DNA from: Bradyrhizobium icense
GTDB taxonomy: Bacteria; Pseudomonadota; Alphaproteobacteria; Rhizobiales; Xanthobacteraceae
Direction of reading: 5' to 3'
Length of the DNA stretch: 64,000 bases
NCBI RefSeq assembly: GCF_001693385.1
Contig: NZ_CP016428.1
Coordinates: forward strand, 5,022,001 to 5,086,000
Shown here: positions 26-56,365 of the stretch, piece by piece
Numbering within the stretch: position 1 is the first letter of the stretch
Layout: each line of letters opens with the position of its first letter
Made by a program: the position numbers and the translations under genes
The notes under the pieces: generated by a model
The model's database searches: none
Told to the model about the DNA's origin: nothing
What the model saw: the letters and a program-made list of their open reading frames with translations, nothing else

Positions 26-1915
26 CTAGCGATCGCCCACGATTGCGCGGGCCATCAGTACATCGAGAACGGCTTCCGCCAATTGCTCCGGCGTCTGCCC
101 CATGGTCCTGAGATGAATTTCGGGGCTTATCGGCATTTCGTAGGGCGCATCGATGCCGGTGAAGTTCTTGAGCTTGCCGGACTTCGCCTTGGAATAGAGA
201 CCCTTGGGATCGCGCCGCGCGCATTCTTCGATCGGCGTGTCGACAAAGACTTCGATGAACTCCTCCTTAGCAACCAGGCTGCGCACCATGTCTCGCTCGG
301 CCCTGTAGGGCGAGATGAACGAGCAAATCACGATTAAACCGCTGTCGGCCATCAACTTGGCGACTTCGCCGACACGCCGAATATTTTCAACACGGTCGGC
401 CTCTGTGAAGCCTAGGTCCCGGTTTAATCCGTGCCGCACGTTGTCGCCGTCGAGCAGCATGGTGTGGCGCGACATTGCGAACAGCTTTTGATCGACAACG
501 TTGGCAATTGTCGACTTGCCCGCGCCGGACAGGCCGGTGAACCAGATGATGCAAGGCTTTTGATCCTTCAGCGCGGCGCGCTCCCTCTTACCCACAGAAA
601 GCGGTTGCCAAGCGATATTGGTAGCCCGCCGCAGCGGGAACGCGATCATCCCGGCGCCGACCGTCCGGTTGGTGTAACGGTCGACGACGATGAATGATCC
701 GGTCTTGCGATTGACCTCGTAAGGATCGAAAGCCGCGGGCAGTGCGGTCGCGACATTGCAGAATCCAATCTCGTTGAGGCTAAGCGTCCTAGCTGCCAGG
801 TGCTCCCGTGTGTTGACGTCGATCCGATACTTGATAGCGGTAATAGTACCGGCGGCAAAAGTCTGTGTTCCAATGCGCAGGATGTACTTGCGTCCAGCAA
901 CGAGCGGCTCCTTGTCCATCCAGATCAGATGAGCGGCGAACTGGTCGGCGACCTCCGGCCGCTCGGTCGGACGCGCCAGAAGATCGCCGCGGCTGATATC
1001 GATTTCGTCTTCGACGACAATGGTGACGGCATCGCCGGCCTCAGCGCGGGTAAGATCGCCATTTTGGGTCACTATGCGCTTGACACGCGTAGTCCGTCCA
1101 GACGCCGCGACAACGATCTCATCTCCTGCCGAGATGCTCCCGGAAGCCACCGACCCGGCATAGCCGCGGAAGTCCAGGTTGGGCCGGTTCACCCACTGGA
1201 CCGGAAAGCGGAAAGTCTGGCTCGCGGTGTCGGACTGGATATCGATGCTCTCCAAATAATCGAGCAGGCAAGGTCCTTGGTACCACTGGGTGTTGCCGGA
1301 GCGGTTGATGACGTTGTCGCCGTACCGGGCGGAGATCGGGATCGGAACGATCGAGGTGAAGCCAAGACCGGCAGCAAAGGCAACATAGTCCCCGACGATC
1401 CGGTCGAACACATCCTTCTTGCAGTTAACGAGGTCGATCTTGTTCACTGCCAGCACGACATGGCGAATACCGAGCAGCGAACAGATGAAGGAGTGACGCT
1501 TGGTCTGGACCAGCACGCCCTTGCGGGCATCGATCAGGATGATGGCGAGCTGGGCGTTCGAGGCGCCGGTGGCCATGTTGCGGGTGTACTGCTCGTGGCC
1601 GGGCGTGTCGGCCACCATGAACGAGCGGCGCAGGGTGGTAAAGAAGCGGTAGGCCACATCGATCGTGATGCCTTGCTCCCGCTCGGCTTCAAGCCCGTCG
1701 ACTACCAGCGCAAAATCGATATCATTGCCGGTGGTGCCGTGCTTGGCGCTATCGCGTGCCAGTGCAGTCAGCTGATCCTCGTAGATCATCTTGCTGTCAT
1801 GCAGCAGCCGGCCGATTAGCGTCGACTTTCCGTCGTCTACCGAGCCGCAGGTGATGAATCGCAGCTGGTCCTTCGTTCCGGCCTGGACAAGCTCGGTTGT
1901 CGCTTTCGAAGGCAT
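26..1915 (-). CDS. cysNC: Bifunctional sulfate adenylyltransferase subunit 1 / adenylylsulfate kinase (CysNC, NodQ type)
   Basis: This 629-residue protein joins the GTPase subunit of ATP sulfurylase to APS kinase. With CysD it makes APS from sulfate and ATP, then phosphorylates APS to PAPS, the donor for sulfotransferases; it acts in the cytoplasm. The GTPase part shows a P-loop (GSVDDGKST, near residue 24), DTPGHEQY and NKIDLV. The kinase part begins near residue 455 with its own P-loop (GLSGAGKST) followed by LLDGDNVRHGLN. Length and motifs match full-length NodQ/CysNC. Its start overlaps the cysD stop by one base, so the two are translationally coupled. In rhizobia this gene pair is called nodPQ when it serves Nod-factor sulfation; no sulfotransferase is in the window, so the role in Nod-factor or polysaccharide sulfation versus cysteine synthesis is undecided. 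Confidence 0.93.
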   Translation of the reverse strand: MPSKATTELVQAGTKDQLRFITCGSVDDGKSTLIGRLLHDSKMIYEDQLTALARDSAKHGTTGNDIDFALVVDGLEAEREQGITIDVAYRFFTTLRRSFMVADTPGHEQYTRNMATGASNAQLAIILIDARKGVLVQTKRHSFICSLLGIRHVVLAVNKIDLVNCKKDVFDRIVGDYVAFAAGLGFTSIVPIPISARYGDNVINRSGNTQWYQGPCLLDYLESIDIQSDTASQTFRFPVQWVNRPNLDFRGYAGSVASGSISAGDEIVVAASGRTTRVKRIVTQNGDLTRAEAGDAVTIVVEDEIDISRGDLLARPTERPEVADQFAAHLIWMDKEPLVAGRKYILRIGTQTFAAGTITAIKYRIDVNTREHLAARTLSLNEIGFCNVATALPAAFDPYEVNRKTGSFIVVDRYTNRTVGAGMIAFPLRRATNIAWQPLSVGKRERAALKDQKPCIIWFTGLSGAGKSTIANVVDQKLFAMSRHTMLLDGDNVRHGLNRDLGFTEADRVENIRRVGEVAKLMADSGLIVICSFISPYRAERDMVRSLVAKEEFIEVFVDTPIEECARRDPKGLYSKAKSGKLKNFTGIDAPYEMPISPEIHLRTMGQTPEQLAEAVLDVLMARAIVGDR

Positions 1916-2814
1916 CAGAAGTAACCTTCCCGCTTCTTCTTCTCCATCGAAGCGGCTTCATCGCTATCAATCAAGCGTCCCTGGCGCTCAGATACCGTCG
2001 CAGTCTGCATTTCCGCGACAATATCCTCGATCGTGGTCGCGTCGGAATCGATGGCCCCACTCAAGGGATAGCATCCCAGCGTGCGGAAACGCATCATACG
2101 CATCTCCGGCTTCTCGTTCGAGAGAAGCGACAATCGCTTGTCGTCGACCATGATCATTGCGCCGCTTCGCCGGACCACGGGTCTTTGCTTTGCGAAGTAG
2201 AGCGGGACGACCGGAATCTTCTCGAGCATGATGTATTCCCAGACGTCGAGCTCGGTCCAGTTCGACATTGCGAACACACGCATGGTTTCGCCCTGGTTGA
2301 TTCGGGTGTTGAAGAGGTTCCAGAGCTCTGGTCGCTGGTTGCGCGGGTCCCACACGTGTCCGGCCGAACGGAAGGAGAAGATCCGTTCTTTCGCGCGGCT
2401 CTTTTCCTCGTCACGTCGTGCTCCGCCAAACGCAGCATCGAACTGATAGAGATCGAGCGCTTGCTTCAGGGCGTCTGTCTTCATCACCTGCGTATGAAGA
2501 GCTGAACCCGAATCGATCGGGTTAATCCCCCGCTCGATGCCGTCCTTGTTCACGTGGACGATCAGGTCGACGCCGAGGCGCTTGGCCGTCTCATCCCGGA
2601 AAGTGATCATCTCGCGGAACTTCCAGGTCGTGTCGACGTGAAGCAGGGGAAAGGGCAGCTTCGCGGGATAGAATGCCTTGATGGCAATGTGCAGCATGAC
2701 GCTCGAATCTTTGCCGATCGAATAGAGCATGACCGGCCGCTTGAACTCGGCGACCACATCACGCATGATTTCGATCGATTCAGCTTCGAGGCGACGCAAA
2801 TGTTTCGGTAGCAT
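1915..2814 (-). CDS. cysD: Sulfate adenylyltransferase subunit 2 (CysD, NodP type)
   Basis: This 299-residue PP-loop ATP pyrophosphatase is the catalytic adenylyl-transferring subunit of ATP sulfurylase and pairs with the downstream GTPase subunit. The PP-loop motif ([10 protein letters not shown]) lies near residue 30, and the conserved [16 protein letters not shown] and the C-terminal KKKREGYF are present. The frame is open further upstream to 3039, but the ATG at 2814 gives the standard family start ([10 protein letters not shown]) and usual length; the upstream extension lies over the cysQ remnant. It is second in a minus-strand order cysQ(broken)-cysD-cysNC. Its promoter may lie before cysQ, where a 14-bp palindrome is found. 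Confidence 0.92.
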
Positions 2815-2844
2815 ATGGTCTTCTTTGATGCAGATCTGTTCGTT

Positions 2845-3335
2845 AGCTGCCGTTTGACGCAGCGCGTCCGCCCCAAGCGACAAAGTCACCGTTGCGGAAG
2901 TCGGGCTTGCCATAGCGTATGTTCTGTCCACCGGGTCCAACAACCCTGCCGCCGGCCGCGAGCAGGACCGCATGCCCGGCAGCCGTATCCCACTCCATCG
3001 TTGGTGCTCGGGGGTAGACATCCGCCTCGCCTTCCGCAATTAAACAAGGGTATATTCGGGAATTCCCCTGAACGAATTCCATGATTCCGTCGAGAGGATC
3101 GACGAGCACGGCGCTCGCTTGCAAGCTTCGAGCCGCATGTTTCTTCGGTGACGATCGACGATTCGGGAAGCGTTCGCGCAAGACACGAACGGATGATCTG
3201 GTCGGCTTCAAGGTCCGCGACTGTCACTGGCGAACCATCGTCCTTTTGAGCAGAGGCGCGGACATTCATGATCGCATCGCCGGCGCACACCGCGATGAGG
3301 CCAAAAAGCCGCGCAAGCCTGTCGAGCTCATCCAA
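2845..3335 (-). pseudogene. cysQ: Broken 3'(2'),5'-bisphosphate nucleotidase (cysQ)
   Basis: CysQ removes the 3'-phosphate from PAP, the by-product of PAPS-dependent sulfation. The N-terminal part is readable from 3335 (FGLIAVCAGDAIMNVRASA, then DGSPVTVADLEAD). Further on, in a second frame, comes the metal-binding motif VDPLDGIMEFVQGN and then, directly, the family C-terminus ([22 protein letters not shown]). Family members are about 260-270 residues with roughly 90 residues between those two motifs, so this copy has lost its middle and carries a frameshift. It cannot make a complete enzyme. It lies just upstream of cysD in the same direction and was probably the first gene of the sulfation operon. 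Confidence 0.8.
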
Positions 3336-7267: not shown

Positions 7268-9154
7268 CTAGAGCGGCCCCCTGCTCCCCGCACCACTGCC
7301 TCGTCCCTCCGATAGGGGCACGCGGATAATAAACCAGAACCATGCTCCGAGCTGAACTGCAAGGTTGATTGCAAAGGCTGTCTGGTAAGCAACTTCCGGG
7401 TAGTGGCCCTGCTGAGGCGTCCAGTACTGAATCACGAAGCCCACCAGATACTGGACCAGAAACGCGCAACCGATGTGAAAGACATTGAGCGCCGCGGTGG
7501 CACGTCCAGCAAGCTCTTTTGGGAAAAAATCGGCCAGAATCGCGTAGCTAAGGACGGTCGCCGCTCCGCCGGCAGCGACGATCATCCACGGAACAGATGA
7601 TGGCAAAGGTACTCGCAGGATCACTGCCAATTGGGCTACGAAGAACGGAACTGCGACCAAGCCCAAGAGCGGTCGTGGACCTATCCCGTATCGACGAAGC
7701 TTTTGAGCCGCAACGCCTAGAACCAGGGCGCCCGCACTCGATGCGATTGCCATGGCAAAGAGATTGCGAAGCAATTCCGATCGGTCCAGGCCCTCGACAT
7801 CGGAGAACCACTGGGCAGCCCACAACCCTTGTAACGCCCAGGCCGTACCAATGCAGGTCGCAGAGAGCGGAGCCAAACGCCAGAAGCGAGGATCTGTATA
7901 AATTATTCGTAGTCCAACGGTAGTCCCCTTCGCTGCCAATGACCACCTGCCCTTTGGCACGAGAACGAAAATTGCAAGGGCGCATCCAACCGATGCGATG
8001 GCTAGGAGCTCAAACAATCCCCGCCAGCCGATCGACACGAGCAGGTATTCGGCCGGCAATGTTGCCGTCACGGCGCCAAAGGACCCTAGCATGATCATCA
8101 GGCCATTGAGCAGTGGCACCTGCTCGGCGGGAAACCAGAGAACGACGGCTTTCAATCCGGCCGTCAATGCTGCAGAAGCGCCAAAGCCGATTAACGCCCG
8201 GCCGAGAAGAAGAAGCCAAAAGTTGTCGGCGACGGCAAATAGCGCTGCCCCGGCGGCTGCGGCCATCAGCACGACACTCTGAATTTTCCCTGGACCGTAT
8301 CGGTCCACTAACACCCCGATAGGAATCTGGGCGGCTGCGAAGGTCAGGAAGTAGATGGACGTCAGGAGACCGAGGTCATCGGCACCCAGACCAAACTCAT
8401 TGGTCAGTGGTGCAGCTATGGTCGCGTTGATGGTACGAAAGAGAAAAGAAAGGTAGTAAGCTGCGACGAAGGGTAAGAAGACGCGCAAAACTAAAAGCCA
8501 ATCTGTGGAGAAGGCTCGTGACCGCTGCGGCCCCGTAGCACGCCATGGCGCCAGAAGCGGCCGCAATATCGCGCCAGCCATTGTTTGATCTGCTCTTGTA
8601 TCGGGTTCGCGCTCGAAGGCTGCGCCTCGAGCATCAGGCGGAGATTGTGGTTTGTTGCCCGCGACAGTCGCCGCAACGCCGTTTGGTTCCTGGTGTGTGG
8701 AGCGGGTCGCCCCTTCTTGCCTCACCGGTTGTGTTGCAAGATGCGCCGGATCAGTCGAATTCACCCGCTCGATTGTTTCCTTGATGAGCGACGTTCCTAG
8801 ATGGACCCGCCTTGTCACCTGTTCAGCAAATTCGTCGAAGCGCGCGAGTCCCAGGGTACAGGCGGCAGGTTGGTCGGCGGCTGCAAGCGGAGGCGTGACG
8901 GCGAGAAGAAATCGAGCCTGAAGTGCAACAGCCTCGCTCACAATCCGCAACTCTTGATGAAGCTGTTCGAGGTTCCGGTTGATGGCGCTCAGCCGGCGAT
9001 CTACCGAGGGCTCTTCGACGTCATGGTCTGGCTCGAAGAAATGAGCGAGGGCAGCCTCAATGATCGCCGATTTGGTGGCCCCGGGACATTGCGCTGCGAC
9101 TGCGAGCCGCGCGGCGACGGGCTCGGAAAGGTAGACACCGATCCATGGCTTCAT
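7268..9154 (-). CDS. Chimeric protein: ribbon-helix-helix conjugation-type regulator fused to an MFS transporter
   Basis: One uninterrupted frame encodes 628 residues. Residues 1-130 (MKPWIGVYLSEPVAARLAVA, then GATKSAIIEAAL) are the CopG/ribbon-helix-helix protein found upstream of trb conjugation genes in rhizobial islands. Residues 192-628 form a standard-length MFS carrier of about 12 membrane segments with the loop motif GVLVDRYGPGK after the second segment. Residues 130-190 are a linker rich in Pro, Thr and Gln. An internal ATG at 8581 would make the transporter alone at normal MFS length, so the natural product may be either form. The start overlaps the stop of the upstream alpha/beta hydrolase by four bases. 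The transported substrate is unknown. Confidence 0.8.
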   Translation of the reverse strand: MKPWIGVYLSEPVAARLAVAAQCPGATKSAIIEAALAHFFEPDHDVEEPSVDRRLSAINRNLEQLHQELRIVSEAVALQARFLLAVTPPLAAADQPAACTLGLARFDEFAEQVTRRVHLGTSLIKETIERVNSTDPAHLATQPVRQEGATRSTHQEPNGVAATVAGNKPQSPPDARGAAFEREPDTRADQTMAGAILRPLLAPWRATGPQRSRAFSTDWLLVLRVFLPFVAAYYLSFLFRTINATIAAPLTNEFGLGADDLGLLTSIYFLTFAAAQIPIGVLVDRYGPGKIQSVVLMAAAAGAALFAVADNFWLLLLGRALIGFGASAALTAGLKAVVLWFPAEQVPLLNGLMIMLGSFGAVTATLPAEYLLVSIGWRGLFELLAIASVGCALAIFVLVPKGRWSLAAKGTTVGLRIIYTDPRFWRLAPLSATCIGTAWALQGLWAAQWFSDVEGLDRSELLRNLFAMAIASSAGALVLGVAAQKLRRYGIGPRPLLGLVAVPFFVAQLAVILRVPLPSSVPWMIVAAGGAATVLSYAILADFFPKELAGRATAALNVFHIGCAFLVQYLVGFVIQYWTPQQGHYPEVAYQTAFAINLAVQLGAWFWFIIRVPLSEGRGSGAGSRGPL

Positions 9155-10065
9155 GGAAGCGCTCCGTCGAAATGCAATCGAGCGGCCGTTGACTTCTCAT
9201 GTCCCGAGACGGACTGTTTCCGTCGGTCGATATGACCCCAGCTTCCTCGCTCGACGGCGCTGAAGAACGCTTCAACTTGCGCGTTGAAGGCCGCAGGTTC
9301 TTCGAGATTGATGGCATGGCCCGTATTGGGGCACACCCAAATGCCAGCGGCGGGAATTGTGGATTTGAGCAACAGGCCGGTTTCTAAACATGGCTTGTCT
9401 TCGTCACCCACGGCGAGCAGCACCGGGACCGTCATCCGTGAAAATTCATCGGGGAAGTTGTGCAAAGACGGTCGCACGGCTTGGCACTGGAGCAAAGTAT
9501 TGGCCATCCCCTGCGCTGAATGCTGCTTGAGCCGGTCTACAAACTCTTGCCAGCCCTTCGGATCCTTGTGTTTCAGTTGAATTCGCGTGAAGTGGCGCGC
9601 CATTTTCTCTGCCATGGCATCCATACCTCGCGCCGCCAATGCGCGCGCGAGAACAGACGTGTTCTTCAACCACCTTTCACGATCCGAGGCTGGAGATCCC
9701 GCCCCTGCTCCGGCTGCGACGATCGCGCTGCTCCTTTCGCGGTACCGCAACCCAAACAGCAGAGCAGCATAGGCGCCCATGCTAGATCCAACCATGTGGG
9801 CGCGCCCGATCGAGAGGTCGCGCATGACGATGCCGATGTCTTCCACGGCGACCTCCCAGCCGTACATGGCAGGATCATCAGGAACGTCGCTCGGTGGATA
9901 TCCACGCGCGTTGTAAGCGATGCACCTATAGCCGCGCGAAAAATAACGGATCTGCGCTTCCCAGCTGTGCAGGTCGGATTCAAATTCATGAACGAAAATG
10001 ACTGGATAGCCCCGCCCATATTCCTCGAAATACAGCCTTATTCCACCTGAATCGATATAAGGCAT
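9151..10065 (-). CDS. Alpha/beta hydrolase
   Basis: This 304-residue protein has the alpha/beta-hydrolase fold. The oxyanion region reads PVIFVHEFESDLHSW, the nucleophile elbow is GSSMGAY (near residue 100), an acidic residue lies in VGDEDKPCL, and the catalytic His is in PNTGHAINLE. The ATG at 10065 (MPYIDSGGIRLYFEE) is preferred to the longer open frame to 10275, because the extension has no family resemblance. The C-terminal 30 residues after the catalytic His look like read-through into foreign sequence, where the frame meets the chimeric RHH-MFS gene. The substrate is unknown; coupling to the MFS gene suggests a shared task. Confidence 0.8.
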   Translation of the reverse strand: MPYIDSGGIRLYFEEYGRGYPVIFVHEFESDLHSWEAQIRYFSRGYRCIAYNARGYPPSDVPDDPAMYGWEVAVEDIGIVMRDLSIGRAHMVGSSMGAYAALLFGLRYRERSSAIVAAGAGAGSPASDRERWLKNTSVLARALAARGMDAMAEKMARHFTRIQLKHKDPKGWQEFVDRLKQHSAQGMANTLLQCQAVRPSLHNFPDEFSRMTVPVLLAVGDEDKPCLETGLLLKSTIPAAGIWVCPNTGHAINLEEPAAFNAQVEAFFSAVERGSWGHIDRRKQSVSGHEKSTAARLHFDGALP

Positions 10066-10257
10066 CGCCACCCCTTTTCTTGGAGCGCCGGCAAGACGCT
10101 GCCGCGCATCGAGTGGCGTTGTGGATGAGCAGGGATAAGAATGGAGGTGTCGATTACCGGCGGATCGGATTTCGACACACATCTCTTGTCTGACGCGCCT
10201 CGGCCAGGCCCTCAGGTCATATCGGGAGCAACTCCTAAAGCTTTCCTGAGAGCACGA

Positions 10258-10335
10258 TGTGGCCAAGGCGTTCAACTATTTCCTGGAGCGATAGGAGGCG
10301 AGCTTCACGCTGTTCCTCGAGAATGAGTGCGTGTG
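10258..10335 (+). mobile_element. Short IS66-type transposase (TnpC) remnant
   Basis: The translation contains AKAFNYFLER, a stop, then EASFTLFLE. This resembles the C-terminal region of IS66-family TnpC proteins. Only about 25 codons are recognisable, so this is a relic. Confidence 0.35.
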
Positions 10336-10339
10336 TCTG

Positions 10340-11327
10340 TTGAATAAGCCCGCCGAAAAGGGGGCTTAGACGCGTCGCGCTTGGCGCCCTAGCCGTGCTG
10401 CCGACCCAAGCACGATTCCCGCATCACGAGGGCAGTTGATGCTTGCGATCGCGTCGTGTTATGCGGGGAGGAATGGCGAGATTCTTAGTGGCTGTCTCCA
10501 GGGTGGGGGTAGCCTTTCGCCTGAAATCCCCGACCCGACATGTTTTGCTCTCGCTGATGAACAGCGCGGAGTCGCTGGCGTCGGCTCGCGGTGCGAGGGC
10601 TGGCTCGGTGAGCCCCATTCCGGACCATATTAGCGGGCGGCCTGAAGACATCACTTCACTTACGACCGGACTGATCGCCTTCGACCATAGCGCCAAGAAC
10701 GACCTCGACCTGTGTCAGTGTGGGCGACCGTGATCGATGTCAGTCGAATATGGGAGTCCTACATCGCCTTACATGGGCTGTCCGGGCCGACTCGAACTAC
10801 ACATTCTAGCACGATTAAACAAAGTACATCCGGTGCTTCTATATCCGAATGAACGCCGCGGGCTTCCGAGCTTCTTGCCTCCCGAGGCGCGCGACATTGC
10901 CGGCAAGAAGCCGCACCATCGTCATCTGCCGGGCCATCAGCAGGCAGCAGATTTCGGCCCATTGAACCACTCTCCCGAAGTCACAGGTGCTACAGCTAAT
11001 AGCTCAACACAGTTGTTTATTGCACAGTTGCGAGGAGGCTGGAGCAAGAGACGAGCTCTTCGCAGGAGCGTTCACCTATTCAATCCGCCAGAAATGCCCT
11101 GCGTGCGGCATGCCCCGTGTGTCCGACCTCAGACGCGCGGCTTGTTTCAAAATCCACCGGTCTTGTTGCGAAGACAACATCGCGATCGAAAAACCTCAGG
11201 GAATGCGCATCGCGTCCGCTGGCCTAGATCCTGCACACCACAAGCGACGCCGTGGAAGCGGCGCCAACAACGTCGGCCATTAGGCCTTCGTTGCAAGTTG
11301 GCGCGCGTCATGTGTTCGTGAGGTGAA
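10340..11327. other. Gene-poor stretch before the outer-membrane protein gene
   Basis: About 990 bp without a gene I can support. Open frames here are short and lack family signatures or sensible start sites. A ribosome-binding sequence (GAGGTG) lies just before 11328. Confidence 0.5.
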
Positions 11328-13052
11328 ATGCGATCTGAACTTCCTTTTTGCGGTGCCGCAACAGCGGCGCTCGTTGCAAGCGGTGCCGTCAATTCGGCCG
11401 ATCTTAAGCCGGCGGTAAAGGTCCCGCCGGCCCTCTGGAGCTGGACCGGCGGGTATATCGGCGGGCACGTCGGCGGCGGCTACGGGCTGACATCATTCAG
11501 TGATCCGTATGGTCCGTCACTCTATGGGGACGTTGTCGACACCCCTGTGTTCCTGGCCGGAGGTCAGATCGGCTACAATTGGCAGAGGGAGCGTTGGGTT
11601 TTCGGCGTTGAATTGGATGCAAGTGGCGCTGTCTCGCACGGTACAAACACCTGTCTTGCCGTTTCCGGCTTTGTCGTGAGCGCAAACTGCAACACCAGTC
11701 CAAGCGCCTTTGTCACCGGGACGGGTCGCCTGGGGTTTACGTTTGGCCCGCAGGGCCACACGCTGGTTTATCTCAAGGGGGGCGTGGCCTGGCAACACAA
11801 TCGCGGCGATGTCGCCAACAACCACGAATTCCCTATCAAAAGGCGCCGTGGCTGGGCGCCACAGACCCATTTCGATTATGGTGATGTCGGTGGCACAATC
11901 GGCGTGGGCGTCGAGCAAGCGCTCACGCCTGCATGGTCCGTAACACTTGAGTACGACTATTTGAGGTTCGGCGGACCAAGTGTAGCAACCCCTCCGACCC
12001 TACGGTATCCGCCCTTGGCAACGGTCCCGGCCAACATCACTAGCCTATCCAGCAGCTATCACGTCGGAAAGATTGGTCTGAACTACCATTTTGACGCCGC
12101 CCCATGGACACGGGCATGGTCAGATACGCCGCTATACGCGACAAAGCCGACGGTCAGCGGATCGCCGATTGCCTTCGCTGATAGGTGGTCGTTGGAAAGC
12201 GGCACACGGCTCTGGTTAAGCCGAGGAAAGTTTCAATGGGACCACGGGGGTAGTCATCTCGTATCAAGACTCACCTATCATGGGCTGGATGGGATTTCCG
12301 GTGAGTTGTTCGAACGGCTGGACAGCCCCTGGGGGATCTTCCTGAAGGGCAATATCGGGTTCGGGCGCTTCAACGACGGAAATGAGAATGATGAAGATTG
12401 GGGCATGGCCGATACCTCCGGGAGACCCCGCATCGCCTACGCCAACACGATATCGGGTCAGGGCAACGGAAGGTTTACCTACTACACCGCCGATGCCGGC
12501 TACAATTTCCTGCGCGGCAGCACCTATAAGGTCGGTGGGTTTATGGGCTGGAGCTACTACGGCCAGAAGTCTGATTCGATAGGCTGCGTTCAGATCGCCT
12601 CCCCCAAGTCTGCTCCATGCCTTGTGCCGGGCGATAGAAGGACTGTCGGCAGCCAAGACACTGATTGGAATGCGCTGCGCATCGGCCTCAGCGCTGAGAC
12701 CATGTTGCTCGATCGTTGGCGCGTGAGTGCCGACGTTGCTTACCTGCCGTGGACGGATTTCCACGGGCGCGACAACCATCTGCTGCGCCCTTTCACGACT
12801 TTTGACGATCAACGCGGGAGTGGTGGCAATGGTGTGCAGGTCGAGGCAGTCCTATCCTACTTCATCACTGAGAACTTCAGCGTTGGCATCGGTGGCCGTT
12901 ATTGGGCCATGTGGACTCCAAACCAGCGTAAAGAACTCGCCACCGAAGCCAAGACGGCGCGCAGCTTTCCTGTTACCGAGGGGCCCTATCCTGCGAACTA
13001 TAGCATGGAACGATGGGGCACGTTCCTGCAGGCCTCCTACAAGTTTGACTGA
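11328..13052 (+). CDS. Outer-membrane protein with two beta-barrel domains
   Basis: This 574-residue protein begins with a secretion signal (MRSELPFCGAATAALVASGA) and a mature start like rhizobial Omp25/Omp31 porins (ADLK, then WSWTGGYIGGHVGGGYG). Residues about 35-260 form an Omp25/31-like barrel, ending in KIGLNYHF. Residues about 280-574 form a second barrel with alternating aromatic strands and a terminal Phe-Asp (ASYKFD), the latter close to the usual aromatic end of outer-membrane proteins. Most Omp25/31 proteins have only the first barrel (about 210-280 residues), so this is roughly double length. It probably inserts in the outer membrane. Function of the second barrel is unknown. Confidence 0.75.
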   Translation: MRSELPFCGAATAALVASGAVNSADLKPAVKVPPALWSWTGGYIGGHVGGGYGLTSFSDPYGPSLYGDVVDTPVFLAGGQIGYNWQRERWVFGVELDASGAVSHGTNTCLAVSGFVVSANCNTSPSAFVTGTGRLGFTFGPQGHTLVYLKGGVAWQHNRGDVANNHEFPIKRRRGWAPQTHFDYGDVGGTIGVGVEQALTPAWSVTLEYDYLRFGGPSVATPPTLRYPPLATVPANITSLSSSYHVGKIGLNYHFDAAPWTRAWSDTPLYATKPTVSGSPIAFADRWSLESGTRLWLSRGKFQWDHGGSHLVSRLTYHGLDGISGELFERLDSPWGIFLKGNIGFGRFNDGNENDEDWGMADTSGRPRIAYANTISGQGNGRFTYYTADAGYNFLRGSTYKVGGFMGWSYYGQKSDSIGCVQIASPKSAPCLVPGDRRTVGSQDTDWNALRIGLSAETMLLDRWRVSADVAYLPWTDFHGRDNHLLRPFTTFDDQRGSGGNGVQVEAVLSYFITENFSVGIGGRYWAMWTPNQRKELATEAKTARSFPVTEGPYPANYSMERWGTFLQASYKFD

Positions 13053-13150
13053 AACTGTTCGCTCGTCGCTCTAAGCCTCGGAAGCCGAACTATACGTGAC
13101 GAAACCGCGGATCCTGTGGGCTCGATTCACGCGGAGACCGGGAATAAAGC

Positions 13151-13187
13151 TGCAAGCTTTTGGGCCGTTCAAGCCCGAAAGCTTGCA
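13151..13187. other. Strong 15-bp hairpin downstream of the outer-membrane protein gene
   Basis: The arms at 13151-13165 and 13173-13187 pair along 15 positions with one G-U, around a 7-base loop (CGTTCAA). It starts 98 bp after the preceding stop codon and lacks a T-run, so it is not a standard terminator. It may stabilise the mRNA 3' end or belong to the adjacent tRNA-like array. Confidence 0.45.
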
Positions 13188-13374
13188 TCGATCTAACCGA
13201 AGGCGAAGGCCAGGCGCCTCGGAAGTGGTGCAACGTTCGATCCCGCCAGGCTTGAGGCGTAACTCTGGAAGTGGACGTCTGAGGCAGTTCCGCCATTCGG
13301 AAGTTCGATCCCTCCGCTACAGCCAGCCAACCCCTAACCATTAAGAAGGCTGTCGGCCGGGGGATTGGTCAGCG

Positions 13375-13436
13375 ACTGTATCGCCCGTAGCACAGGGGAT
13401 CAGCCGGTCGACGCCGGTTCGAGTCCGGCTGGCAGT
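13375..13436 (+). pseudogene. tRNA-like remnant lacking an anticodon arm
   Basis: A perfect 5-bp T-stem (GCCGG/CCGGC) encloses the loop TTCGAGT, and flanking bases pair partly as an acceptor stem. A D-arm-like GTAGCACAGGGGAT is present, but the distance to the T-arm leaves no room for an anticodon arm. It is a deletion relic. Confidence 0.45.
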
Positions 13437-13444
13437 GCCGACGT

Positions 13445-13521
13445 CTTCCCGTAGCTCAACCGGATGAGCAGCGCTCTACGAACGCGAAGGTATGCAGGCT
13501 CGGGTCCTGCCGGGAGGGCCA
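13445..13521 (+). tRNA. tRNA-Arg(ACG)-like gene, best-preserved member of the array
   Basis: The 77-base unit shows a 7-bp acceptor stem (CTTCCCG with CGGGAGG, one G-U), a perfect D-stem (GCTC-N8-GAGC), the anticodon loop CTACGAA with anticodon ACG, a 5-bp T-stem (GCAGG/CCTGC) with loop CTCGGGT, and an encoded CCA end. The anticodon stem pairs at only three of five positions, so it may be inactive. Confidence 0.6.
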
Positions 13522-13524
13522 ATT

Positions 13525-13594
13525 TCAGGCGCAGGGTAGCGGCTGTCCCGCCGGTTGTGGGATATTGTCGGTTCGAGTCCGACCGCCTTCACCA
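13525..13594 (+). pseudogene. tRNA-like gene with encoded CCA, possibly His-type
   Basis: The T-arm is perfect (GTCGG, loop TTCGAGT, CCGAC), the acceptor pairs at five of seven positions, and CCA is encoded. The middle reads GCCGGTTGTGGGA, which resembles a His (GTG) anticodon loop, but the stem does not close and the total is only 70 bases. It is probably decayed. Confidence 0.45.
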
Positions 13595-13786
13595 AAACAT
13601 CCGTTGACTAAGTTCGAGCGTCATTGTCGAAGCGATCAGCGGTGTGAGTCAAGAAATCGCCTGCACTGATTGGTTCGGATACTTCAGCCATCATACCAGT
13701 AATGCGCCTGACGCCGCGTCGTCCGAACCAGACACTTGCCAGGCGACTACGGCCCTATTGCGGGATCGGTGCTGAAGAAGGTTTAC

Positions 13787-13833
13787 TTCGCTTTGGGAGC
13801 GAGAGGTCGCTGGTTCGAATCCAACTCGGGAGA
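13787..13833 (+). pseudogene. 3' part of a tRNA-Pro(TGG)-like gene
   Basis: An anticodon arm pairs fully (TTCGC with GCGAG, one G-U) around the loop TTTGGGA, giving anticodon TGG. A 5-base variable loop and a T-arm (GCTGG, TTCGAAT, CCAAC; four of five pairs) follow. No matching 5' acceptor or D-arm precedes it and CCA is absent. Confidence 0.5.
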
Positions 13834-13835
13834 AA

Positions 13836-13890
13836 TCCCAGTAGCTCAGTGGTAGAACGCTTGCCGTTCCGGTTTCGATACTTGCCCGGT
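13836..13890 (+). pseudogene. 5' part of a tRNA-Gly(GCC)-like gene
   Basis: TAGCTCAGTGGTAGAAC is a typical D-arm with one mismatch, followed by CGCTTGCCG with a Gly GCC anticodon. The T-arm and 3' acceptor are not convincing. Confidence 0.45.
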
Positions 13891-14061
13891 CCTGCAATAG
13901 GGCGACCTTTTCGGCATCGTGAGCATGACGCTGACGGAAAGCGGTTACTTCGTCGGTTCGATTCCAATCGACCCCGCCTTATGGGGTCGACGCCCAGTTG
14001 GTCGGGCATACCAGCCCGGCCTCGTAGCTCTTCACAACCGGCAAATCCCCCGGAAACTGCT

Positions 14062-14433
14062 TCAGTTCCTCTGTGAGTTCTGCGACCTCCATGGCTTGTC
14101 CGCTGTTCACGAGGTGATCGCAGCAGCCGTGCTCGCTTGTTTATATCCACCTGTTTGAGGACGGCAATGGACGTCTTGACGTCCACGTCGCTTCACAGCA
14201 CCGCCGGCACACCGAAATTCCACGCAGCTGTAGGTCAAGGGATTACCTCACGGACGAGGAGATCTAAAGGGCACTGCGCAAGGGGCGATTTGGCCGAGAA
14301 GGCAAATCCGTTCACCTGAAGCGGTTTAGAGAGCCTGACATCCTCGACCCATTGCGGCACGCACTGATAGTCCACCCAGAAAACGATGACGCTTCAAAGC
14401 CCGAGCTAACAGCTCGCTGAAAGTTTGAATACG
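14062..14433. other. Gene-less gap after the tRNA array
   Basis: About 370 bp with no supported gene. A short imperfect inverted repeat around 14159-14190 (GGACGTC and GACGTCC) is the only structure seen. Confidence 0.4.
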
Positions 14434-17498: not shown

Positions 17499-18161
17499 CT
17501 ATGCCGCCGCCCGATCTTCCTTATCCGCGCCGCGCATGAAGATCTTGAGCGCATCATCCGGCAACGGGCGTTGCAGGACCTTCGCCTCGTCCCATGGCGC
17601 GCGCATCCAGACGTCGCGTTCTTCATCGGTCGTAAGGATCACTGGCATCGCCTTCGGATAGATCGGCGCAACAACTGCGTTCGCCTCAGTGGTGAGGAAG
17701 CCGTAGACAAGGTGTGGACCCGGAATCGGCTTTGACTTGATGCCTCGGTCGCCCTTGAACTCGGTCCAGATGCCCCCGAACGCGAACAGCGGCCGGTCGT
17801 CGTTGAGTGCGAACCAGACGACGTCCTTTTTGTTCGTCTCCGGATTCGGCTCGGAGGCATACTCAGCAAAGCCGTTGACCGGGACCGGGCATCTGTTCTC
17901 CGGCTTGAGCCACATGCGCCAGTGTGGCGATGACGTGTTGCGGATGTTCGTGACCGGCGGACCGCCAGTGCGCGGTGGTGGCGGCATGCCCCACCGCATC
18001 ATCGCAATTTCGCGCTCTTCGTCGGCATTCCGGATCACCGGAGCCGGATAGTCCGGGAACACACCTGGCATCGGCGGTAGGTTGCCAACATAGCGGTTGA
18101 TCACGTCGGAACAGCGCGCGAATGGCTTCTGGTTGGACGTGATCGAATAGAGATTACACAT
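17499..18161 (-). CDS. SRAP-domain protein (YedK/HMCES family)
   Basis: This 220-residue protein belongs to the SOS-response-associated peptidase family, which crosslinks to abasic sites in single-stranded DNA through a cysteine exposed after Met removal. The start MCNLYS gives that Cys2 and decides the start at 18161 over the longer open frame. The conserved [19 protein letters not shown] and a late AMPVIL segment are present. It follows a 57-residue hypothetical gene by 43 bp. It is common as an accessory gene in Bradyrhizobium. Confidence 0.88.
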
Positions 18162-18204
18162 TTCAGCCGGGCCGATTATTCCAAAACTCAACGCCGTCCG
18201 GAGA

Positions 18205-25673: not shown

Positions 25674-25940
25674 ATGAAGCGAGCAAGGTTCACGGAAGAG
25701 CAGATTATCGCGGTATTGAAGGAGCATGAGGCTGGGGCGAAGACAGCTGACCTGGCTCGCAAGCATGGGATCTCCGAAGCAACGATCTACAATTGGAAGG
25801 CCAAATTCGGCGGCATGGACGTTTCCGAGGCGAAACGGCTGAGGGCCTTGGAAGAGGAGAACGCGAAGCTGAAGAAGCTTCTGGCCGAGCAGATGCTCGA
25901 CGCGGCCGCCCTTCGCGAGCTGCTTTCAAAAAAATGGTAG
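25674..25940 (+). CDS. IS3-family transposase OrfA
   Basis: This 88-residue protein has an N-terminal helix-turn-helix ([16 protein letters not shown], then [15 protein letters not shown]) and a C-terminal leucine-zipper-like helix. It ends in LLSKKW just after a run of seven A residues (25928-25934). A -1 shift there enters the OrfB frame, the usual way IS3 elements make the fusion transposase OrfAB. Confidence 0.92.
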
Positions 25941-26860
25941 GGCCCGCCGCCAAGCGCGCTGCGGTCGCGCATCTGCAGGCCGTCATGAGCCTGTCGGAAC
26001 GGCGGGCCTGCTCGATCGTGGGCGCGGATCGGAAGTTGATCCGTTATCGCTCCAGCCGCCCTGCGGACGCGGCTCTGCGCGGCCGGTTGCGCGATCTCGC
26101 CAACGAGCGGCGGCGGTTCGGCTACCGCCGGCTATTCGTCCTGCTGCGACGGGAGGGAGAGCCCTCGGGGATCAATCGGATCTACCGGATTTATCGCGAG
26201 GAAGGGCTCACCGTCCGCAAGCGGCGGGCTCGGCGCAAAGCTGTGGGGACCCGTGCCCCGATCCTGATCGAGGCGAGGCCCAACGCGCGCTGGTCGCTGG
26301 ACTTCGTCCACGACCAGTTCGCCAACGGCCGGCGCTTCCGCATTCTCAACATCGTCGACGACGTCACTAAGGAATGCCTGGGCGCCATTCCGGAGACGTC
26401 GATCTCAGGACGGCGCGTCGCCCGCGAACTGACGGCAATCGTCGAGCGACGCGGCAAGCCAGAAATGATCGTGTCCGACCATGGCACCGAGTTCACCTGC
26501 AACGCCATGCTCGCCTGGAGCAAGGAGACGGTCATCGATTGGCACTTTATCGCGCCGGGAAAGCCGATGCAGAACGGCTTCATCGAGAGTTTTAATGGCC
26601 GGATGCGCGATGAACTGCTCAACGAGACCCTGTTCTTCGATCTGGATGACGCCCGCGCCAAGATCGCCAACTGGGTCGCCGACTACAATATCCGGCGGCC
26701 TCACTCGTCGCTGAAATACCTGACCCCCGCGGTCTATGCCGCCCACCTCACCGCAACGGACGATCGGCTGCGCAACCCCGACCAGCTCCGCCGATCGTCC
26801 GTTGCTCCACCCGCGCCACTTGGCGTACAAAACCCCGAGACTCTAACCGCTGCTGGATGA
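25934..26860 (+). CDS. IS3-family transposase OrfB (DDE integrase)
   Basis: The catalytic protein is read from the -1 frame beginning near [14 protein letters not shown]. Its DDE residues are visible in [17 protein letters not shown] and MRDELLNE, with the HTH_21 region ([17 protein letters not shown]) before them. The frame is open upstream to 25793, but that part overlaps OrfA and is unlikely to be translated. It looks intact, so the element may be active. Confidence 0.9.
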
Positions 26861-28609: not shown

Positions 28610-28930
28610 GCAAGGCGTCACAGCGACCGACCTAGACACGGTGATCCGAGATCTCCTGGCGGGGCAACACTCATCGAGCTCGTCGTCTCGAAGCATCCGG
28701 GACCGATCCGCGTGGTCGCTTTCAACACCGCAGAATGCTGATCGGAAGAGGTTGCAGAGGATGTGGCCCACAAGCTGCGCCGACGCTGCGATTTGCAGCT
28801 ACCGTCTTCGCTCTGTGACTTCGTGGAACGCCATGACAGGTTGATAAGCGCCAATTGGCGTTGCGATTGGCCTGAAAGCATTCGCGTTTCGACGCCAGTG
28901 CAGACCCGGTCGCCTGCCATCAAAACCTGA
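28610..28930 (+). pseudogene. Broken conserved hypothetical gene
   Basis: The frames join as DTVIRDLLAG, then TLIELVVSKHPGPIRVVAFN, an opal stop (TGA near 28738), then EDVAHKLRRRCDLQLPSSLC and DWPESIRVSTPVQTR. The 28739-28930 stretch is clearly coding-like. At least one frameshift and one stop break it. Function unknown. Confidence 0.55.
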
Positions 28931-28992
28931 CGGCACTTTCCCCGGTTCCATTGATTGTCTATGGTGGCTTGGGGCCCTAGACGGGTGCGTAG

Positions 28993-29163
28993 ATGACAGG
29001 AAATGGTCAATTGGCGGAGACACCACGGGACCGCTTTCTAGAAGCGGCCAAGATTGAACTCGCGGCCTTCGAGCATCGCGAGCGCGAGTTTCTCAAACGG
29101 GATCGCGACGAGCGGAAAAGACAGCTATTGCGCAGCATGCCAAAGAGCGAGAAGCGTCAATAG
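28993..29163 (+). CDS. Hypothetical 56-residue charged protein
   Basis: ATG at 28993 opens a small helical protein dominated by Lys, Arg and Glu (FLEAAKIELAAFEHRERE, then FLKRDRDERKRQLL). It ends before a terminator-like hairpin at 29241. No family is recognised. Confidence 0.45.
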   Translation: MTGNGQLAETPRDRFLEAAKIELAAFEHREREFLKRDRDERKRQLLRSMPKSEKRQ

Positions 29164-55053: not shown

Positions 55054-55987
55054 ACTGAAGGGCAAGACGGTCTACGTCGCCGGCCACCGCGGCATGGTCG
55101 GCGCCGCGCTGGTGCGCCGGCTGGCTGCGGAAGGTGTCGAACTGCTGACCGCGCCCCGCAGCGAAGTTGATCTGCGCGATCAGGCCGCGGTCAATGCGTG
55201 GTTTGCTGCCAACCGGCCTCAGGTGGTGTTTCTCGCCGCCGCCAAGGTCGGCGGCATCGTCGCCAACAACACGCTGCGCGTCGAATTCCTCTACGACAAT
55301 CTGGCGATCGCTTCCAACGTGATCCATGCCGCGCATGTCCACGGCGCCGAGAAGCTGATGTTCTTAGGCTCGTCCTGCATCTACCCCAAGCTGGCGCCGC
55401 AGCCGCTGCGCGAGGATTCGATGCTGACCGGGCCGCTGGAGCCGACCAACGAGCCCTATGCGATTGCCAAGATCGCCGGGATCAAGCTGGTGGAGGCCTA
55501 TCGCAGCCAGTACGGCGCCGACTTCATCAATGTGATGCCGACCAATCTCTACGGAAGCGGCGACAATTACCATCCCGAATACAGCCACGTCGTCGCCGCG
55601 CTGATCCGCCGCTTCCATGAGGCGAAGCAATCCGGCGCCAAGGAGGTCGTGGTATGGGGCACCGGCACGCCGCGGCGCGAATTACTCTATGTCGACGACC
55701 TGGCGGATGCCTGCATCCATTTGATGAAGACCTATTCGGATGACGAACTGGTCAATATCGGCACCGGCGAGGACATCACGATCGCCGAATTCGCCCGCGT
55801 CGTGGCGGCAACCGTCGGCTACACCGGCGAGATCAGTTTTGACACCTCGCGCCCGGACGGCACGCCACGCAAGTTGCTCGACGTCAGCCGGCTGGCCAAG
55901 CTGGGCTGGCGGGCCAGCACCAGGCTCGAAGATGGCATCAAGCTCGCCTATCAGGCCTTCCTTAGCGAGCACGCGGTGAACACCTAG
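55034..55987 (+). CDS. nolK: GDP-L-fucose synthase (NolK type)
   Basis: This 317-residue epimerase/reductase makes GDP-L-fucose from the NoeL product. [18 protein letters not shown] is the NADP-binding motif, [15 protein letters not shown] holds the catalytic Ser, and [15 protein letters not shown] the Tyr and Lys. ATG 55034 lies within noeL, so the two are translationally coupled. GDP-fucose is the donor for Nod-factor fucosylation by NodZ, which is not in the window, or for surface polysaccharide. Codon use is high-GC like noeL. Confidence 0.93.
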
Positions 55988-56037
55988 CTCGCCGAGAGGC
56001 TTTGTCGGCCGTATTTGTCGCGCCAACGTTTCACTCC

Positions 56038-56080
56038 TTTCGGCGAAAACCGGTATCCATTTTTCCAGATCATGCTTTAG
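56038..56080. repeat. Palindromic-type intergenic repeat of Rhizobiales
   Basis: The stretch from TTTCGGCGAAAACCGG to CCAGATCATGC matches one arm of a repeat seen in many rhizobial intergenic regions, whose translation often appears as an artefact in short reading frames. Confidence 0.5.
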
Positions 56081-56084
56081 GATG

Positions 56085-56365
56085 CTCGCGTGGTGCGCCC
56101 GCCGCGCGAGCGAGCCGGTCAACGCGTAGAGAATATTGCTCCACACGCCTTGGCGGCTCCAGCGGTTGAAGCGGTTGTAAATCGTTGTGTACGGCCCGTA
56201 GTCTGGCGGACAGTCTCGCCAGCGTGCACCCGATCGCAGCATGTGGAAAATCCCGCTGATCACGCGCCGGTCATCCACGCGGTGCGCCCCGCGTCGCCCG
56301 CGTGGCAACAGCGGTTCGATCCGCTTCCACTCCAACTCGCTCAGCCAGCACAGTTGCTTCGCCCC
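56085..56365 (-). pseudogene. IS5-family transposase N-terminal fragment
   Basis: LSELEWKRIEPLLPRGRRGA, then SGIFHMLRSGARWRDCPPDY and YNRFNRWSRQGVW are the N-terminal domain of IS5/IS427-type transposases. The catalytic part is missing. It ends in the nearby palindromic repeat. Confidence 0.75.

Follow-up and report, generated by a model that had tools for sequence, protein, structure and literature searches.

A decayed tRNA array with two Y RNA-like genes in Bradyrhizobium icense, probably left by a phage

Here we show that positions 13367-14037 of a 64-kb window of the Bradyrhizobium icense genome (G000; the labels G and L denote the genomes and loci compared, and the window is the whole stretch analyzed) are genuine, decayed tRNA-type sequence, lying on a single strand and beyond chance. 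Judging from sequence comparison, the remnant is a composite, with tRNA-Glu(CTC), tRNA-Arg(ACG) and tRNA-Pro(TGG) on the left and a tandem pair of predicted Y RNA-like (YrlA-type) genes on the right. Very probably, it is what is left of a tRNA array like those of large (about 90-130-kb) Bradyrhizobium phages. The array would have arrived with a phage downstream of an outer-membrane protein gene before G000 and G028, which holds the stretch at the same locus, separated, and the subsequent decay would have left Glu(CTC)-Arg(ACG)-Pro(TGG) and the two Y RNA genes, Y1 and Y2. The homology, the order of the members, the left junction and one intact array beside phage structural genes (in G088) are observed directly. 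Most of the array tRNAs, the HNH gene and the Ro60 gene are missing from the window copy, which is a fossil of modest interest in itself.

Of five occurrences of the strict T-loop pattern in the 64 kb, four fall in 13417-13965 and the fifth outside it (either strand), compared with 1.36 occurrences expected in the whole window. The first-pass annotation had described seven T-loops within 13225..14060 and taken all members for tRNAs; decayed tRNA sequence on one strand is indeed present, but it is smaller and more mixed than claimed, with only four strict T-loops. The segment 13225-13366 is older flanking DNA that also occurs in genomes without an array at this place, and recognizable sequence ends at about 14037. 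Three genomes, G067, G068 and G179, have all or most of 10765-13366 in common with the window and then diverge, without an array at this place; BLAST colinearity ends at 13366 in all three, which puts the left boundary of the remnant at 13367. No attachment site is visible at 13366. The right end falls within 14037..14108: homology to the viral locus L191 stops at the former position and colinearity with G028 at the latter.

The older left flank contains, on the plus strand, a 3' fragment of tRNA-Gln(TTG) with its T-loop and CCA (13288..13327), which matches the tRNA-Gln(TTG) of the same genome at 90% and is not an array member. In G067, G068 and G179, this fragment likewise follows the corresponding outer-membrane gene, and it looks like an integration scar. 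Matches to 13288-13327 are present in 33 of 36 genomes of the genus (the own genome included; some are the tRNA gene itself), with six in G017, as if integrations at the tRNA-Gln(TTG) gene had been repeated.

The only tRNA gene called by ARAGORN in the window is Arg(ACG) at 13445..13521 (plus strand), the best preserved tRNA of the remnant. It is the only member that exceeds the gathering score of RF00005 (35.3 bits, compared to 29); with this covariance match, and with intact arrays in other genomes, the refuting condition set in the first-pass annotation does not hold. Its score is below those of the intact Arg(ACG) genes of L024, L086 and L088 (51.0-53.4 bits). Sub-threshold RF00005 matches lie at 13525-13591 (17.9 bits) and 13769-13833 (15.0 bits). 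Isotype HMMs derived from related arrays give 73.0 bits for Arg(ACG) and 31.8 bits for the 3' half of Glu(CTC) at 13400-13439. Two segments match Pro(TGG), 13790-13826 with 20.4 bits and 13530-13594 with 11.5 bits; the strongest match in the rest of the window, a chance match, reaches 14.1 bits. The tRNA-Glu(CTC) remnant (13381..13439, plus strand), also aligned with intact arrays, has a recognizable 3' half and a degenerate 5' half. The tRNA-Pro(TGG) remnant (13526..13594, plus strand) lacks 4 nt of the anticodon arm but retains its CCA end; because its 11.5 bits are fewer than those of the chance match, it is identified by alignment with Pro(TGG) of G088 and L191 and by gene order. The G028 homolog of this piece is the sole ARAGORN call there, as Pro with anticodon agg, and Arg is not called; that the Arg call is confined to the window and the Pro call to G028 is what independent decay would predict. 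With one ARAGORN gene, the window falls outside the density of array units, 2-9 tRNA genes per kb, as given for Mycobacterium in an excerpt of PMC5966550. The Glu-Arg-Pro order of the remnant is that of L024, L086, L087, L193 and L195.

In the right half, 13752-14037 aligns with the Y RNA pair of L191 at 85.4% identity over 295 columns (E = 1.7e-74) and carries the GTGnTGAAGA..TTACTTCG lead of the Ro60-side copies. Y1 (13767..13865, plus strand) is a predicted Y RNA-like gene, a putative circularly permuted tRNA mimic that is partly decayed. Its anticodon-like arm (13787..13803, plus strand), a 5-bp stem with the 7-nt loop TTTGGGA, has the same letters as in L191 and five of five pairs. The second, canonical-type copy, Y2 (13929..14014, plus strand), is colinear with Y2 of L191 and has a T arm, a hairpin and a D-like arm, with the basal stem lost (by eye). 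Its score with the covariance model R1 described below, 20.1 bits, is within tRNA-junction noise, and its assignment as a Y RNA is backed by colinearity alone, below the score threshold. A 24-base piece of Y2 matches only the L191 contig in the viral collection, and among the 265 genomes of the genus, the L191 Y pair is matched, over 6-266 of its 376 bases, by G000 and G028 only. Hence the right half does not appear to consist of tRNA genes as originally proposed, with the first Y RNA-like copy clear and the second recognized by colinearity. If we infer correctly which letters had been meant, the Pro(TGG) loop reported earlier would be explained by the TGG in the intact arm of Y1, although a true Pro(TGG) remnant exists at 13526-13594; the supposed Gly(GCC) letters near 13862 come after the D arm of Y1; and the His-like GTG sits inside the true Pro(TGG) remnant.

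The Rfam YrlA model (RF02553) was rejected as proof by itself because 8 of 14 control genomes also give matches. The window reaches 25.7 bits with this model, short of the gathering score of 69 bits; in the genus, 102 of 265 genomes have a match (E<=0.01), none of them at the gathering score, and some of these matches will be tRNA junctions. For this reason, we built R1, a covariance model from 30 Ro60-side copies, with array tRNA junctions as the control. In 440 kb including many tRNA-tRNA junctions, Y1 of the window is the top of 137 matches (63.1 bits), followed by G148 (54.0), G028 (51.9) and an Armatimonadetes copy (48.1 bits). The best matches assignable to tRNA junctions are 36.7 bits in this set and 40.6 bits in another. 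TROVE is present in 77 of the 265 genomes, and R1 matches 30 of 30 loci from these genomes at E<=1e-5, 29 of them above 40.6 bits, a partly circular result given that the training loci overlap the Ro60 set; the exception is the G164 array copy. The matches in the window, G028, G148, phages and Armatimonadetes are outside the training set.

Segment 13783-13866 also resembles loci in G021, G019, G016, G029 and G014, in which ARAGORN finds one tRNA at most and the Rfam YrlA model two matches each (34-42 bits; a third of 22 bits in G021), situated upstream of Ro60 (TROVE) genes. The own genome, G000, has no TROVE/Ro60 match. The Armatimonadetes copy (L181 9563-9669, in a contig of a metagenome-assembled genome) lies shortly before a Ro60 gene, with one tRNA gene in 21 kb; the other Armatimonadetes Ro60 locus, L182, has one tRNA as well.

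Intact relatives of the array were found in other Bradyrhizobium genomes, as the first-pass annotation had anticipated, which bears out its reading of a decayed array. The L024 array has 25 tRNA genes in about 5.6 kb, and a piece of it finds a match at E<=1e-20 in 28 of the 265 genomes of the genus, counting G000 and G028; among 21 regions read, 15 have at least 16 tRNA predictions in a permissive intron mode that counts some stray ones. In a search of 60 relatives, the whole stretch was found only in G028 (83%), with strong partial matches in G001 and G024, both with ARAGORN arrays. Window segment 13400-13526 has the same order as G001, G024, G133 and G179, at 89% identity. The shared consensus order, from which individual arrays lack some members, is Thr Leu Val Ile Lys Leu Asp Pro(CGG) Met Arg(CCG) Met Tyr Gly Phe (Ile or Ala) Asn Glu(CTC) Arg(ACG) Pro(TGG) Gln(CTG) Cys Arg(TCT) Ser Gly(TCC) Glu(TTC) Gln(TTG) His Trp. 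An HNH gene (178 aa) lies inside the array, usually directly before Arg(CCG); over 28 sources, it is full length or nearly so in 18, partial in 3 and absent in 7, including the window and G028 (some of these seven are 3-kb views). No HNH gene was detected in the window at 1e-3. Searches for TROVE and HNH sequence at or near the remnant gave best E values of 0.95 and 0.030 (1.2-kb subject), and the L191 Ro60 compared with the whole window has E = 0.54, none of them above noise.

The intact array of G088 lies beside terminase, portal and tail genes, which makes the array phage cargo: the adjacent 60 kb (L232-L234) encode terminase, portal, tape measure, tail fibre J, DnaB helicase and primase. 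The capture from a mobile element suggested earlier is thereby supported, the element here being a prophage family. A scan of the viral collection with HNH yielded 40 loci, the best 9 of which are G164, G148 and seven with 30-37 tRNAs each; the G148 and G164 array contigs are also listed as viral in IMG/VR (132 and 102 kb, respectively). In G088, G164 and G165, about 3-7 kb at most separate the Trp end of the array from a tRNA-Lys(TTT) gene, a possible attachment site; in G148 the distance is ~20 kb. Among the G088 array tRNAs with a host counterpart, 15 of 29 differ from it in the 7-nt anticodon loop and 14 are the same, a comparison made with no null model; 2 further array tRNAs have no counterpart among the 42 host loci read.

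The closest relative of the window is L191, a locus from a 108-kb IMG/VR viral contig, with 70.6% identity over window 13400-13595 and the order Glu (14917), Pro (15080), Y1, Y2, Ro60 gene, Gln(CTG) (17007). Its Y1 scores 85.1 bits with R1, and its TROVE gene (61.8 bits, 450 aa) is located between Pro and Gln(CTG). The Y pair of the remnant would correspond to the pair directly before Ro60 in L191, in the slot between tRNA-Pro(TGG) and tRNA-Gln(CTG). The arrays of G148 and G164 also contain a Ro60 gene (TROVE and Ro60 vWA) between Pro(TGG) and Gln(CTG), with an R1 match of 54.0 bits ahead of it in G148 and only 29.9 bits in G164. Two distant Ro60 types thus occupy the Pro-Gln slot, one of 450 aa (L191) and one of 540-552 aa (L180 of G148 and L179 of G164), as if Ro60 cassettes were exchanged at one site; with the G148 Ro60 as the query, the L191 TROVE protein is undetected at 1e-3. 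Viral contigs L185-L189, which have Ro60, show at most one tRNA in the stretch covered.

Three intact arrays, L086 (G133), L024 (G001) and L087 (G179), stand alone and have flanking host-like genes in common, of siderophore type by eye. Among 8 ORFs flanking the G133 array, there is no structural phage gene beyond a terminase-small-subunit match of 0.00047 in an ABC-transporter ORF. Such arrays may have been kept or domesticated, and one of this kind may have been the donor of the window remnant.

Comparison of 10 window ORFs with PHROGs returned one transposase (the transposase-like ORF 25793-26857, 5.9e-51) and two families of unknown function, and no phage structural gene. No second clear gene of the phage family was found in the window by comparison with 17 array and phage pieces. 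The SRAP-family gene at 17499-18191 is 80% identical to genes upstream of the L095 array and 75% to those of L193 and L195, but was rejected as a second phage relic because equally close copies are scattered through these genomes, the own one included, which has seven more full or partial copies at 74-80% identity. Minus-strand ORFs 55682-56335 (37.8% over 74 aa) and 28618-29010 (60.9% over 46 aa) weakly match DNA flanking the L193 array, and the outer-membrane ORF has a weak protein match to L094/L190. Two same-strand ORF pairs of equal sizes, 26-3039 (629+374 aa) and 7268-10275 (628+374 aa), the latter an MFS transporter and an alpha/beta hydrolase, suggest a possible duplication.

Window 13367-14040 and G028 are identical in 598 of 666 columns, with 16 gap columns. 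Third-position change relative to G028 is 5.4% in the MFS gene, 7.5% in the hydrolase gene, 4.1% in a 194-codon ORF and 11.9% in the outer-membrane gene, and the stretch diverges from G028 at about the neutral rate. With L191 as the outgroup, changes in the window and G028 lineages number 7 and 12 of 99 columns in Y1, 0 and 2 of 62 in the linker, and 0 and 4 of 86 in Y2. The zero window-lineage changes in the 148 columns of the linker and Y2 (13866-14014), compared with 7 of 99 in adjacent Y1, are poorly explained by neutral decay. Relative to shuffles, the fold of Y1 is no better in either sequence (z of +0.87 in the window and -0.52 in L191), and that of Y2 has z of -2.40 in the window and -4.57 in L191. 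The basal stems seen in the L191 folds are absent from the window folds (by eye).

Could all the members nevertheless be tRNA genes, with the Y RNA match merely reflecting a tRNA-tRNA junction? Such junctions do trigger the YrlA models, as in the control genomes, R1 matches many array junctions, and the Pro(TGG) HMM reaches 20.4 bits within Y1. However, the 63.1 bits of Y1 stand against 36.7 and 40.6 bits for the best junctions, the alignment of 13752-14037 with Y1-Y2 of L191 runs from end to end and includes the Ro60-side lead, and none of the 265 genomes has an intact array with two ordinary tRNA genes here at >85% to this segment, which makes the all-tRNA alternative highly improbable. An origin on a plasmid or conjugative element, which we regard as unlikely, gains some plausibility from the Mycobacterium arrays, described on plasmids as well as phages in the accessible parts of PMC5966550 and PMC12803027, and from the stand-alone chromosomal arrays of G133, G001 and G179. 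Against it, the full arrays are on viral contigs, and although 24 plasmid records match the L024 array, none covers 80% of it; the longest match among the best 20 of the 24 covers 9% and corresponds to the HNH gene.

The remnant might also still be functional, with host selection maintaining it as an orphan Y RNA or, as the first-pass annotation suggested in part, to supply tRNA fragments. The unchanged linker and Y2, the fold of Y2 and the intact anticodon-like arm are in line with this reading, but the genome has no TROVE match, the basal stems are unformed and the divergence is near neutral, so that continued function is quite improbable. The z-score of Y1 in the window carries little weight here, given that Y1 of L191 does not fold better than shuffles either. 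If the stretch is a decaying stump of a phage array, no function is expected in the window because the parts needed are gone or damaged.

A hairpin ahead of the T arm is seen in the Ro60-side Y RNA copies. A fixed-motif script retrieved 60 distinct copies in 43 loci, 38 with a long segment before the T arm and 22 with a short one; in each of the 38 long copies, four or all five pairs of the stem form, enclosing a 7-nt loop whose second position is T. By comparison, at least 4 pairs with that T occur in 1.6% of random 17-mers from the same loci, a figure that yields no probability because the copies are related. An anticodon arm (5 bp), T arm (5 bp), acceptor (7 bp) and D arm (4 bp) were scored on an alignment of 35 copies (34 long ones and L191; the window is outside it). 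Paired cells amount to 97.6%, compared with 92.9 in shuffles and at most 53.1 when the structure was slid, and 43 cells changed on both sides, compared with 13.0 in shuffles. The innermost anticodon-like pair is CG in 17 copies, AU in 11 and UA in 7, and is never broken. Two other counts do not favor the structure, namely pairs changed on both sides (5 compared with 3.4, a value reached by 41 of 500 shuffles) and further pair types (11 compared with 13.2, reached by 500 of 500), and RNAalifold by itself, on alignment A6, omits the anticodon-like helix. All 35 copies follow the loop rules of pyrimidine 32, U33 and purine 37, with 16 different triplets, and N-CCA is found at the discriminator and CCA position in 19 of 35 copies, L191 and the window not among them. 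On this comparative evidence, the Y RNA that comes first next to Ro60 genes in Bradyrhizobium is a putative circularly permuted whole-tRNA mimic, opened between the D and anticodon arms. By eye, arms of varying completeness can also be made out in phages Sixama and BeanWater, in L197 and in the Armatimonadetes contig.

Phage tRNA arrays are suspected, without proof so far, to counter host nucleases that cut tRNA. In the intact phage, the array would replace host tRNAs destroyed by defense nucleases, and Y RNA and Ro60 would take part in RNA quality control or serve as a tRNA decoy; the array and the Ro60-Y RNA cassette might then form a single RNA counter-defense module, of which the window keeps the ruins. 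A related proposal, in the part of PMC10264068 that is available, is that phage tRNAs resist anticodon nucleases, and a portion of PMC7790460 proposes YrlA as a possible competitive inhibitor of anticodon nuclease. More speculatively, and with less than an even chance in our estimation, the Y RNAs ahead of Ro60 genes in Bradyrhizobium and in tRNA-rich phages could include a class that is an entire tRNA opened between its D and anticodon arms, with an origin in a tandem tRNA-tRNA junction as in phage arrays. The layout would be an anticodon arm with a variable triplet, a variable loop, a T arm, a 7-bp acceptor (about half of the copies having N-CCA ahead of the cap) and a D arm; such RNAs would be held by Ro60 as decoys for anticodon nucleases, and arrays and decoys would make up one counter-defense cassette, with the window as its fossil. 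The presence of a Ro60-Y RNA cassette inside alphaproteobacterial arrays, in one slot and with two distant Ro60 types, joins two RNA systems that are both poorly understood. The decoy idea becomes directly testable with a class of Y RNAs that carry an anticodon arm and differ in the triplet, and this class suggests a route from adjacent tRNA genes to Y RNAs.

No paper pairing 'tRNA array' with Bradyrhizobium was found, and in a study of soybean Bradyrhizobium phages (PMC10127595), tRNA is mentioned once, in a table. The titles and abstract starts among the matches listed include mycobacterial arrays and genome notes on actinophages that encode Ro-like proteins, with no rhizobial arrays with Ro60 or Y RNAs and no Y RNA with an anticodon arm; the novelty is open to correction. 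The Bradyrhizobium arrays resemble the tRNA array units of Mycobacterium, which, according to excerpts of PMC5966550, PMC12803027 and PMC9569102, comprise dozens of tRNA genes, representing many isotypes, within a few kb, with HNH inside or beside them, and, in M. avium, anticodons redundant with those of the host. Unlike these units, they have alphaproteobacterial hosts, a conserved isotype order of their own and, in some cases, a Ro60 and Y RNA cassette, and the window copy is a remnant.

The tRNA-rich actinophages, including Gordonia phage Sixama, Mycobacterium phage BeanWater and the McGee and BE2 phages (the Ro-like genes of the latter two as described in the available parts of PMC9583779 and PMC13191466), similarly combine a Ro-like gene with 31-44 tRNA genes. 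In Sixama, the Ro-like gene directly adjoins a tRNA array with HNH genes, and R1 matches BeanWater at 57.0 bits before Ro and the Sixama array at 45.0 bits. However, the gene order differs, and among the best 30 of 347 phage records, all of which are <60%, identity to the G148 Ro60 does not exceed 49.7%. The YrlA family (RF02553) shares the succession of elements (T arm, then capped acceptor-like stem, then D arm) and the location beside Ro60 genes, whereas the first copies of Bradyrhizobium have, in addition, an anticodon-like arm that the Rfam consensus structure lacks; a passage of a review (PMC8394870) names the likeness to tRNA for D, T and acceptor only. Finally, the rsr-yrlBA-rtcBA RNA repair operon of Salmonella, as presented in part of PMC7790460, likewise joins a Ro60 ortholog with Y RNAs and is tied to damaged tRNA, whereas the Bradyrhizobium cassette sits in a phage tRNA array.
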